Assembly (NCBI GenBank): GCA_947166565.1
Contig: CAMVEL010000022.1
Coordinates: 1 to 32,376, forward strand
Source: an uncultured Erysipelotrichaceae bacterium
Lineage (GTDB): Bacteria; Bacillota_I; Bacilli_A; RFN20; CAG-826
Direction: 5' to 3'
Length of the DNA: 32,376 nt
Position 1 is the first letter of the stretch; every line of letters begins with the position of its first letter. The notes beneath the pieces were generated by a model. It saw only the letters and a program-made list of their open reading frames with translations, was not told the origin of the DNA and made no database searches. A program made the translations under genes and the position numbers. This document shows positions 21,671 to 25,817 of this stretch, in pieces.

Positions 21671-22522
21671 TTAGGCTAGATAGGCCTTATATGTGGTGAC
21701 TTCTGGGACGACCTCACCATCGATTTGGAGACCGCACGGCTGATCGAAGGTGACCTCGACGCATTTGCCTTGCTGGAAATAGGCCCATTTCTTTCCGACG
21801 TGTTTTCCTTTTTGGATGCCCGGGAAAGCAAGAAGGGTCCTGATCCTGCCCTTTTTGTTGATGCAGACGAAGGTCAAGGAATCGGAATTCCTCTTCTGGT
21901 CTGGGGCAATCTTCATGCCGCCGCCATAATAACGGCCGTTCATGCAGGAAGCTAACCAAACGCCTTCGAAGGTAAGGGGTTCCCCGCCATCGATTGTAAC
22001 GGTGGCCTTGCGAGGAATGAACGGTCCAAGAAGGAGGCTGATGGAAATCTTGCTGTAATTGATGTCGGTTTCGCCGGCTTTGAGTTTTTCTTCGGCGACG
22101 ACGCAGCATTCGCCATCGACACCGAATCCGATGCCGTTGATGAAGCGATAGGTTTTGCCCTTAACCTCAACGCGGGGGAGACCGACGAGGAAATTGTTGA
22201 TTCTATAAAGGTTATTGACCGGCTCGACGTATTCCTTGATGTCATTAAGGAAGTCGTTCCCGGTTCCGGCCGCATAAAGATAGACGGGAACGCTTGGGAT
22301 TTCCTCAATATGGTTAATGAAATAGTTGAGGGTTCCGTCTCCTCCAAGAATGGCGAGTTCGTCCCCTTCCTTCAACCCCTTGCAGAATTCGTTAAGTTCG
22401 ATGGAGGCACTATCGGTGCAATTGACTTCGAATCCGGCGCCTTGAAGTGCGGCGGCCGCTTCTTGGGCGCTTTCCGTTCCTTTTCCGCCATCGGCATGAG
22501 GGTTATAGAGCAAATGGAGCAT
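21671..22522 (-). CDS. Diacylglycerol kinase-like lipid kinase (DagK/YegS family)
   Basis: About 283-aa cytosolic or membrane-associated kinase. The N-terminal nucleotide domain has LLYNPHADGGKG, ILGGDGTLNYFIN and AAGTGNDF, the classic motifs of the diacylglycerol kinase catalytic fold; the C-terminal beta-sandwich ends in the LQIDGEVVP segment typical of YegS/DgkB proteins. It probably phosphorylates diacylglycerol or another lipid in membrane turnover. ATG 22522 is chosen because AAAGGA lies 9 nt upstream; the longer GTG frame from 22540 would put that site inside the gene. It is divergent from the low-molecular-weight phosphatase gene. Confidence 0.93.
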   Translation of the reverse strand: MLHLLYNPHADGGKGTESAQEAAAALQGAGFEVNCTDSASIELNEFCKGLKEGDELAILGGDGTLNYFINHIEEIPSVPVYLYAAGTGNDFLNDIKEYVEPVNNLYRINNFLVGLPRVEVKGKTYRFINGIGFGVDGECCVVAEEKLKAGETDINYSKISISLLLGPFIPRKATVTIDGGEPLTFEGVWLASCMNGRYYGGGMKIAPDQKRNSDSLTFVCINKKGRIRTLLAFPGIQKGKHVGKKWAYFQQGKCVEVTFDQPCGLQIDGEVVPEVTTYKAYLA

Positions 22523-22612
22523 GATGATTTTTCCTTTCACTTAGGTTAATGCTAGCTTGATATTAAACCTCCCGAGGAAGTTTTTCATCTAATTTTTCCC
22601 CTTTCGTCCAAA

Positions 22613-23173: not shown

Positions 23174-24049
23174 ATGAGCAAATCCAGAGTTTATTTTACC
23201 GAATCACTCGATAATCTGGCCCCGTTACGGTTGTTGGAGGCCTTAGGAAAGAAGCTCGAAGGCAAAATCCTTGCGAAAGTCCATTCCGGCGAAGAAGGGA
23301 ATCAGAATTTCCTTAAGCCCGATTTCTGGCTTCCGACCATCAAGGAACTTAACGCCACGGTCGGCGAATGCAATACCGCTTACGAAGGAAGCCGCGACAC
23401 CAGCGACAAACATATCCAATTGTTGAAGAAACATGGTTGGATCAATACCGATTTCCCCTTTGATTTGATGGATGAAGAAGGGCCTGACATGGTTTTGCCA
23501 ATTGGCTTAGAAGGTCATCTAGGCGTCGATTATGTTGGCAAGAACCTCGCCAAATACGATTCCATCATTGTCCTTTCCCATTTCAAGGGCCATCCAATGG
23601 GTGGATACGGAGGTGCCTTAAAACAGCTTTCCATTGGCTTTGCTTCGAGCTTTGGCAAAGCCCATATCCATTGCGCGGGCGATACCGATCATTCCAAAAT
23701 CTGGACGGCCCCCCATGATGATTTCCTCGAATCGATGGCCGAAGCCGCCTACTGCATCAATAATCTATACAAGGGAAAGGCGATATATATCAACGCGATG
23801 ATCAACCTTTCCGTCGATTGCGATTGCTGCTCGGTGGCCGAAGATCCCTGCATGAAGGATATCGGAATCCTTATCTCCGATGACCCCGTCGCAATCGATA
23901 GGGCTTGCATCGATTTGGTTAAGAATAGCAGCGATCCCGGGAAGGCCCATTTCCTTGAAAGGGTCAATTCCAGAAACGGCGAACACACGATTGACCATGC
24001 CGCGAAACTTGGCGTGGGCAATCAGGATTACGAGCTCATTCGCATCTAA
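23174..24049 (+). CDS. DUF362 family protein
   Basis: 291-aa cytosolic protein of the DUF362 family, whose members are often annotated as Fe-S proteins of unknown function in anaerobes. Typical segments are VLSHFKGHPMGGYGGALKQLSIGFAS, the Cys-rich VDCDCCSVAEDPCMKDIGIL and DDPVAIDRACIDLV. The Cys group could bind metal. It lacks the ferredoxin-like 2x[4Fe-4S] domain that many longer members carry. AAGGAG at 23161-23166 fits ATG 23174. No partner gene indicates its role; a 740-bp stretch with a structured RNA follows it. Confidence 0.9.
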   Translation: MSKSRVYFTESLDNLAPLRLLEALGKKLEGKILAKVHSGEEGNQNFLKPDFWLPTIKELNATVGECNTAYEGSRDTSDKHIQLLKKHGWINTDFPFDLMDEEGPDMVLPIGLEGHLGVDYVGKNLAKYDSIIVLSHFKGHPMGGYGGALKQLSIGFASSFGKAHIHCAGDTDHSKIWTAPHDDFLESMAEAAYCINNLYKGKAIYINAMINLSVDCDCCSVAEDPCMKDIGILISDDPVAIDRACIDLVKNSSDPGKAHFLERVNSRNGEHTIDHAAKLGVGNQDYELIRI

Positions 24050-24116
24050 AATTAAATAATTTTTCCCCTTTTGCAAAAATTTTTCATTTTCGTGAGCCAA
24101 AATTGGATTTTTTTCA

Positions 24117-24771
24117 CTATTAGTTAGTAGAGGCGAAAAAAAGTAGTCTCTCCGTTCCAGGGTTCGGGTAAGCCCATCTAACAGTTGGGAAAAAGCTGGT
24201 GAGGTAACTCAGGAATATCCTTATAAGTCGATTGACAAAAAAGCCGAAAAACGGATGACGTTTATCGACGAAAAAGACTACCGTTTCCCGGGAATGGTGG
24301 TTATCCTGGCACCCTCGGGCCGAGGGGAAGAGCTTGCGCAGCCATCTTTGGCGATCAAGAAGATTGATATCGGGCCACGATTCGGACTCGTGTGATCCTC
24401 TTTGTTGCAAGGCAAAGTGGGAGCCGCACTCCTTGACAGCCTCATCGTGATTTGATTGAAATCAGACCACGGACTGAAAATCCAGTGTTGGTCCTCCTTT
24501 GTTGAAAACAAGCGATACCAACTCGCCGATCCACGTCGTTGCTGATATGTGATGCTTATGAAGCCGAGCACTAAGTCAGCAAAAATCAAATGTCCCTCGG
24601 GCGGAGGGCAAATGCCTGTTAGCCTATCTGGGCGAGCAGGAAAAATCGCCACTCGAATCTCGTACGGTCAGCCGCAGGACCCAAACTTGCGGCCCAACCC
24701 CTGCCTATTGGTGAACTTTAGGTGGGGGTTCGCTTTATTTAAAGCCATGCATGGCGTAAAATACTAAATAG
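24117..24771 (+). ncRNA. Large structured non-coding RNA, about 655 nt (ROOL/OLE/GOLLD-like size class)
   Basis: No protein-like frame exists here. The ends pair: CTATT (24117-24121) plus TAGTA (24125-24129) with TACTAAATAG (24762-24771), then GAGGCGAA (24130-24137) with TTCGCTTT (24729-24736). Inside are many local helices, such as TTGCTGA/TCAGCAA (24539-24579 region), CCCTCG/CGAGGG, GGCGA/TCGCC, CCGCA/TGCGG, and a 12-bp stem AACCCCTGCCTA with TAGGTGGGGGTT. G-U pairs in several helices would be A-C mismatches on the other strand, so the plus strand is transcribed. It is not RNase P RNA, tmRNA, 6S, rRNA or a group II intron by their core motifs. Size and habitat suggest ROOL, which I cannot confirm. 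Confidence 0.75.
24744..24755. repeat. 12-bp perfect palindrome near the 3' end of the large RNA
   Basis: GCCATGCATGGC, preceded by GCTTTATTTAAAGC. It can form a small hairpin within the large RNA, between the 3' arms of its two closing helices, or act as an operator before TAAAAT at 24757-24762, ahead of the DUF2804 gene. Confidence 0.45.
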
Positions 24772-24791
24772 GAGAAGAACATTTTAGCCCC

Positions 24792-25817
24792 ATGCAGAAG
24801 AACCACTTGATGAACGAAGGCCCCTTGTTGAACGAAAAAGGGAATTTGACTGAACCAGGTTACGCTTTTTCTCTTGTCAAAGAATATTCGCGTTCGGCCA
24901 TCAAAGCCCCGAAATGGCGGATAAAGGAATGGGATTATTACTACATCGGCAACGACGATTATGGTCTTGCCCTAACGATCGCGGATAACGGCTACATGTC
25001 GATGGCTTCGATTTCCTTGCTCGATTTCAAATCTAGAAAAGAAGAGACCCTCTCGAAAATCGGCCTCTTCCCTATGGGCAAGCTGAATTTGCCCTCCTCT
25101 TCCAAATCTGGGGAAAGCAAAATCGAGGGCAATGGTTTCGATTTCTCCTTTACCAACGACGGGAAAACCCGTCATCTTCTTTGCCATATCAAGGGATTCG
25201 GAAAGAAGAAGGAGACCTTTAGGGCGGACATCCTCCTTGAAGAAACCACTAACGATAGCCTTGTGATTGCAACCCCTTTTAGGAAGAAGGCCCATTTCTA
25301 TTACAACCAAAAGATTAATTGCCTTAGAGCCCATGGATATGCAAAACACGGGGATAAAACCTATGATTTCAATTCTTCGTTTGGGGTCCTCGATTGGGGA
25401 AGAGGGGTTTGGACTTATCGGAACACCTGGTATTGGTCTTCCCTTTCGTCGATGTATAACGGCCATTTGATTGGTTGGAATCTCGGATACGGTTTTGGCG
25501 ATACCTCCGCCGCCAGCGAGAACATCTTCTATCTTGATGGCAAGGCCTTCAAATTAGGGGATGTGAAAATGGAAATACCCTTTACCAAGAATGGCGATGA
25601 TTACCTTTCCGCTTGGCGCTTCCATTCCTCGAACGGGGATATCAATATAACCTTTAATCCGATAATCAATCGTCACACGGACACGAATCTCCTTATCCTA
25701 AGGAGCAATCAACATCAGGTGTTTGGCCTGTTCTCTGGTACCATTCTTCTCGATGGAACCCCATTCCAATTCGAAAACGTTATGGGCTTCGCGGAAAAAG
25801 TCTATAACAAGTGGTGA
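24792..25817 (+). CDS. DUF2804 family protein
   Basis: 341-aa soluble protein of the DUF2804 family, function unknown. The N-terminus NEGPLLNEKGNLTEPGYAFSLVKEY and the central LDWGRGVWTYRNTWYWSS...GWNLGYGFGDTSAASENIFY are diagnostic. It is rich in aromatic residues and beta strands, resembling carbohydrate- or lipid-binding folds; that is impression only. ATG 24792 fits the conserved N-terminus, but the nearest purine-rich site (AGGAG, 24770-24774) is 17 nt away and overlaps the 3' strand of the large RNA. Its stop codon touches the stop of the GH2 gene on the other strand with no gap. Confidence 0.9.
   Translation: MQKNHLMNEGPLLNEKGNLTEPGYAFSLVKEYSRSAIKAPKWRIKEWDYYYIGNDDYGLALTIADNGYMSMASISLLDFKSRKEETLSKIGLFPMGKLNLPSSSKSGESKIEGNGFDFSFTNDGKTRHLLCHIKGFGKKKETFRADILLEETTNDSLVIATPFRKKAHFYYNQKINCLRAHGYAKHGDKTYDFNSSFGVLDWGRGVWTYRNTWYWSSLSSMYNGHLIGWNLGYGFGDTSAASENIFYLDGKAFKLGDVKMEIPFTKNGDDYLSAWRFHSSNGDINITFNPIINRHTDTNLLILRSNQHQVFGLFSGTILLDGTPFQFENVMGFAEKVYNKW

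Follow-up and report, generated by a model that had tools for sequence, protein, structure and literature searches.

ROOL (Rumen-Originating, Ornate, Large), GOLLD and OLE are large RNAs whose functions are still poorly understood (PMC12286853). Ligilactobacillus salivarius produces an abundant long non-coding RNA of 520 nt, which was present in 34 of 45 strains and whose deletion gave no definite function; the excerpt of that report contains no link to competence (PMC5643018). In the pneumococcus, the list of the ComX regulon includes the non-coding RNAs srf-01 and srf-29, both of unknown function. They are described as small; one group of transcripts overlaps an IS element and was considered unlikely to have a function, the other overlaps the gene cbpD (PMC6560143).

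The locus described here lies in a window of 32,376 nt (the whole stretch of DNA that was analysed) from an uncultured Erysipelotrichaceae bacterium, which is probably a rumen bacterium. The gap between the DUF362 and DUF2804 genes (24050-24791, 742 bp) was read on both strands, and it is very probable that positions 24129-24745 of the plus strand form a structured, non-coding RNA, whose start, end and transcription itself we infer from the sequence. A homologue of the RNA is found in a second species of the same genus (G025; the genome of the window is G000). The RNA and its two neighbours are arranged as follows:
23174 to 24049, plus strand: upstream gene, DUF362 (PF04015)
24129 to 24745, plus strand: predicted large structured non-coding RNA of about 617 nt, with both ends predicted (fold z-score, divergence, frames unconserved)
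24792 to 25817, plus strand: downstream gene, DUF2804 (PF10974)
As the best explanation, we propose a stand-alone structured non-coding RNA of about 617 nt, which would be induced in competence and act in trans (probability about 0.5). A trans-acting RNA of the competent state would be the simplest reading, and the promoter suggests when such an RNA is made.

The RNA shares with ROOL (RF03087), OLE and GOLLD a similar size, an elaborate predicted fold and an unknown function. An earlier note on this DNA had interpreted it as a ROOL-type RNA or an unnamed relative. The large structured RNA on the plus strand was borne out, while the ROOL type was not, and kinship with ROOL, OLE or GOLLD was not demonstrable. 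The Rfam covariance scan gave no match to RF03087, either at the gathering threshold in the window or at E <= 10, and the same tool detected ROOL at 130.4 bits in the Ligilactobacillus salivarius megaplasmid pMP118. OLE, GOLLD and raiA also had no Rfam 15 match at gathering or at E <= 10, with a positive control that covered ROOL only. At the gathering threshold, no Rfam family was found in the whole window or in the homologue of the second species (L018). Weak hits to SAM_V, HLE and rli47 (24040-24800, E <= 10) were all far below gathering and implausible, the best being SAM_V with 19.2 bits against a gathering threshold of 41 (E 2.1). A ROOL RNA assembles into a homo-oligomeric cage, is prophage-encoded and often lies near tRNA islands; the 32-kb window contains 0 tRNA genes, and none of the ten window proteins scanned is phage-like. 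Unlike ROOL, the 617-nt RNA has no covariance-model match and no tRNA gene in its window, and it stands behind a competence-type promoter. The long non-coding RNA of L. salivarius is encoded on the megaplasmid, in a stretch that matches ROOL, whereas the 617-nt RNA does not match it.

When the gap was compared with its own genome by blastn, 14 further matches were obtained, all of which fall inside 24069-24151 and none of which belongs to the RNA body. The aligned matches consist of TGAGCC, 18 bases and CTATTAGTTAGTAG, and in many of them a Shine-Dalgarno sequence comes immediately after. At the RNA the two elements are:
24093 to 24098, plus strand: -35-like TGAGCC; of the 20 aligned sites of the genome, 19 have it at this spacing of 18 nt to the box
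24117 to 24130, plus strand: com box CTATTAGTTAGTAG, predicted -10 / start region, with repeated copies in the genome
This competence-type promoter is absent from the earlier note. Searching the genome with up to two mismatches to CTATTAGTTAGTAGNGG returned 19 sites versus 1 for the reversed control, and these together with one further site (C39 peptidase) make up the 20 aligned sites. The fixed spacing of TGAGCC is kept at the site of the RNA, and the single exception is recA. Exact copies of CTATTAGTTAGTAG number 12 in the genome of the window, 13 in the second species and 3 in another species of the genus (G006), with none in the other 28 of the 31 genus genomes.

The genes behind the box include RecA (PF00154), DprA (PF02481), a ComEA-like protein (SLBB plus helix-hairpin-helix) followed by comEC, and a DEAD/DEAH helicase, which we take to be ComFA-like. 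The box differs by one change each at recA and dprA, and by two at the helicase. ComEC was recognized by PF03772 (24.9 bits, cut-off 23), while DprA and ComEA are below the NCBIfam cut-offs. The remaining units contain an OrfB/TnpB gene, a C39 peptidase, an ABC transporter, and uncharacterised or small proteins. If a total of 12 competence operon heads in 1700 genes is assumed, the chance of at least four among 20 sites is about 7e-6. Besides, 9 of 25 further genus species have CTATA or CTATT no farther than 45 nt from comEA (mean of 2.4 in shuffles, of which 0 of 1000 reach 9), compared with 1 of 25 for an upstream control segment, and this enrichment points to a related element in some of these species. 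Six IMG/VR contigs match the box alone, which was taken as chance.

As to membership in the competence regulon of the species, the RNA carries the box with the fixed -35 spacing that is common to the com genes, and we are largely confident that it lies behind a competence promoter. Since the box TGAGCC-N18-CTATTAGTTAGTAG is common to competence genes, a late-competence transcript is the most likely identity of the RNA. It could be argued that the box instead drives some other regulon, of stress or social behaviour, to which recA, dprA and the com genes would belong, given that most of the 20 units are uncharacterised or encode small peptides, a C39 peptidase or an ABC transporter, and that none of the three sigma-like proteins in the genome (RpoD among them) was matched to the box. 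We give little credence to this view, because comEA-comEC, dprA, recA and the ComFA-like helicase together form the late-competence signature, which is known from streptococci. Like srf-01 and srf-29 of Streptococcus pneumoniae, the RNA is non-coding and would be part of a competence regulon (here by its predicted promoter); unlike them, it is about 617 nt long and strongly folded, has a different promoter sequence and comes from another bacterial class. For this group of uncultured bacteria, the box is a candidate competence promoter, and our literature search found no description of such a promoter there.

Between the RNA and DUF2804, two further features concern the 3' end:
24696 to 24730, plus strand: terminator-like hairpin AACCCCTGCCTA...TAGGTGGGGGTT, then CGCTTTATTT (pair probabilities 0.68-1.0)
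24757 to 24762, plus strand: -10-like TAAAAT, candidate own promoter of DUF2804, judged from sequence only
The hairpin has a local z-score of -2.69 (4 of 200 shuffles as low), and its tail is T-poor. A terminator pattern scan marked an overlapping stem (24710-24734), which is weak evidence, as 3 sites were found in 1.1 kb versus 1.3 expected. In the sigma-70 pattern scan of 23900-25000, no promoter was found.

The main rival explanation is that the competence promoter captured DUF2804, so that the 617 nt would be a long 5' leader of this gene with the last hairpin controlling read-through. The RNA is on the same strand and ends 46 nt before DUF2804, its attenuator-like hairpin is just upstream, and no sigma-70 promoter pattern occurs between the hairpin and the gene. 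A comparable ambiguous case is pneumococcal srf-29 before cbpD (PMC6560143). We consider the leader unlikely, since DUF2804 is present in 25 of the 31 genus genomes but the RNA in only 2, and since 617 nt is large for a leader. Moreover, 24 further DUF2804 loci were collected, 22 of them usable, and a box-like sequence up to 300 nt from the DUF2804 start is absent from all 22, while exact TATAAT lies within 80 nt of the gene in 4. In the genome G021, the order LMWP-DUF362-DUF2804-GH2 is collinear, with 114 nt between DUF362 and DUF2804 and the RNA absent. We favour an RNA with its own ends, which would have been inserted between DUF362 and DUF2804 in the ancestor of the two species that carry it.

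For such a stand-alone RNA, the following course may be proposed. When the cell enters competence for natural transformation, transcription would begin near 24129 from TGAGCC-N18-CTATTAGTTAGTAG, the promoter common to comEA-comEC, recA, dprA and further genes, which a sigma factor or an activator specific to competence would recognize. The transcript would stop near 24745 at the hairpin before DUF2804, and the RNA would then work in trans, alone or with a protein; its task might be to handle DNA, or to dampen translation or its own regulon. If the RNA is switched on together with the genes for DNA uptake, its function could be sought in a defined cell state.

The plus strand of 24129-24745 has a predicted folding energy of -219.9 kcal/mol (z -4.29; 0 of 200 shuffles as low), and the homologue in the second species reaches z -4.07 (0 of 200), compared with z -2.04 for the reverse complement (2 of 100 shuffles as low). 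As background, z was computed with 20 shuffles apiece for 72 windows of 617 nt taken from both strands, two of which overlap the RNA; the lowest value was -2.96 and the median -1.41. With looser ends (24110-24780), z is -3.39 on the plus strand and -2.19 on the minus strand. The many local stems seen by the earlier reader reappear in the predicted fold, together with long-range closing helices (P 0.74-0.99). The elements discussed below are:
24152 to 24169, plus strand: 5' arms of the predicted long-range closing helices, CCGU (24152-24155) and GGGUUCGGGU (24160-24169), in both MFE and centroid
24227 to 24269, plus strand: variable hairpin, with the basal stem kept and the apical part changing
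24651 to 24667, plus strand: 3' arms of the predicted long-range closing helices, ACUCGAAUCU and ACGG, in both MFE and centroid

It had also been proposed that two closing helices join the ends of the RNA. Long-range pairing of this kind is predicted, but with other closing pairs. The 5' arm of the first helix (24117-24129 with 24762-24771) is the promoter box CTATTAGTTAGTAG, which is present before other genes too; this helix, whose first three pairs have P of about 0.98 on paper, is probably an artefact of the promoter box and not part of the RNA. The second (24130-24137 with 24729-24736) is weak or dependent on the boundaries, with pair probabilities of 0.03-0.15 (24129-24745), at most 0.06 (24105-24790) and 0.14-0.73 (24124-24760), and a rival 5' hairpin competes with it. 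Better closing pairs are 24152-24155 with 24664-24667 (P 0.94-0.98) and 24160-24169 with 24651-24660 (P 0.74-0.99), both arms of which are identical in the second species.

Between the two species, the RNA differs by 22 substitutions in 614 aligned sites. The segment 24228-24260 of the variable hairpin holds 10 of the 22 and a 3-nt deletion; two basal pairs are altered on one side and still paired. The RNAalifold consensus has 205 pairs, of which 0 show a double compensatory change, in an alignment of only two sequences about 96% identical. The changes break 6 MFE pairs versus 9.15 at random (P 0.076), and 11 of the 22 fall at paired bases versus 14.95 at random (P 0.045), a slight avoidance.

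In the six flanking genes, 303 synonymous changes were counted at about 1563 sites (pS 0.194, pN 0.014), with a low pS of 0.068 in the gene at 21671-22540. The RNA changes far less than these synonymous sites (22/614 vs 303/1563; Fisher P 6e-25), as it does when only the two genes next to it are used for the comparison (73/397; P 7e-15). Four short intergenic stretches have 2/100, 10/99, 2/59 and 0/19 changes (14/277 together), and the RNA is not clearly below them (P 0.36), which weakens the argument for selection. Outside the variable hairpin (24228-24260) the comparison is 12/584 versus 14/277 (P 0.03), and it was picked post hoc. Because short intergenic stretches hold promoters and terminators, we still read the low change over 617 nt as constraint, with a weaker case than the synonymous comparison alone implies, and take the low divergence as a hint that the RNA matters.

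The earlier statement that the gap contains no plausible protein was confirmed: in the second species, both long ORFs of the minus strand are interrupted. A 72-aa plus-strand ORF has only non-synonymous changes between the two species. If a small protein were encoded here, for instance by the 46-aa frame at 24255-24395, the RNA fold would be incidental. This frame is open over 47 codons in the second species, where a 3-nt indel stays in frame, but it carries two amino-acid replacements (K to N, V to A) against zero synonymous changes, no Shine-Dalgarno sequence was seen upstream of it and it has no Pfam or NCBIfam match. Fold and conservation also reach well past the frame, and we judge a protein-coding explanation to be extremely improbable.

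The RNA was found in 2 of 31 genus genomes, many of which are incomplete, and in 2 of 279 order genomes (the same two species), though comEA is present in 27 genus genomes. By blastn of the 279 order genomes, 26 others had short matches (E 4e-4 to 0.05). A model of 24308-24651 (R1), run against the 279 order genomes and 392 phylum genomes, gave only a weak match in G376 beyond the two species (18.5 bits, E 4e-4 per genome), which covers 90 nt while the model has 347 positions. Against 224 family genomes, a model of 24530-24750 (R2) gave only a weak match in G266 (13.8 bits) beyond the two. All three model runs used stricter filters, and the two models together span 24308-24750. No strong further relative appeared in blastn against phage and plasmid collections, or in viral contigs searched with a 19-mer and a 20-mer.

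This patchy presence would also fit a structured RNA that is unconnected to competence, borne by a mobile element and placed behind the box by chance. A TnpB/OrfB gene likewise stands behind the box, and a patch in the RNA that is similar to the 3' end of tRNA-Asp resembles an integrase att core. Yet there is no integrase among the ten window proteins scanned, the box and the RNA are conserved together in the second species and the gene order is kept in G021, so that we find a mobile origin of this kind quite unlikely.

The patch belongs to a pair of tRNA-like segments:
24469 to 24488, plus strand: resembles the tRNA-Phe(GAA) anticodon arm, with 95% identity over 20 nt and a score of 31
24653 to 24673, plus strand: resembles tRNA-Asp positions 56-76, the 3' half with T-arm and acceptor, in 20/21 nt
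Both are identical in the second species, and the tRNA-Asp patch overlaps the closing helices. The fair figures are the own-genome E values, 0.046 for tRNA-Asp and 1.95 for tRNA-Phe. Both scores together were reached in 0 of 4000 shuffles and 0 of 1744 natural pieces, a joint figure that is biased because the 23 tRNA sequences used came largely from loci fetched for matching the RNA; a best patch score of at least 31 occurred in 3 of the shuffles and 1 natural piece. These patches could be chance or mimicry. A bolder form of the stand-alone reading, which we regard as tentative and rather doubtful, is that natural competence would here have a large ornate RNA of its own, the first of its kind: an RNA machine of more than 600 nt, induced in competence and possibly a mimic of tRNA parts, that acts on translation or incoming DNA as long as transformation can take place.

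Antisense pairing to the mRNAs of the regulon was considered and set aside. In a duplex screen of unpaired RNA segments against 18 starts (100 shuffles each, multiple tests), 2 starts reached 0 of 100 shuffles (the comEA site L151, and L158), with no general signal.

Several other observations concern the box and its surroundings. The sigma-like proteins besides RpoD are one of 226 aa encoded beside rpoD (G000:C2:86700, L203) and one of 196 aa (G000:C20:25162, L204), both candidate readers of the box. A repeated element of about 250 nt follows the box at G000:C4:12849, C9:22852, C9:40325 and C2:120266 (L124, L126, L164 and L163) and in G025 (L116, L119, L133); it has a GC-rich hairpin (CCGCGC...GCGCGG, by eye) and then usually a GTG-start frame for a small cationic peptide, and it may yield a small RNA, a bacteriocin-like peptide, or the two together. 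The TnpB/OrfB-type gene is behind the box in both species (L157 at G000:C34:9856, with PF01385 and PF07282, and L139 in G025). A C39-peptidase membrane protein (L053, G000:C2:77857) and an ABC transporter (L152, G000:C10:4945) behind the box suggest peptide export in the competent state. The three exact boxes of G006 (L117, L120, L123) have a different upstream region and other genes downstream, and one of these genes resembles, by eye, an antitoxin of the RelB/DinJ type.
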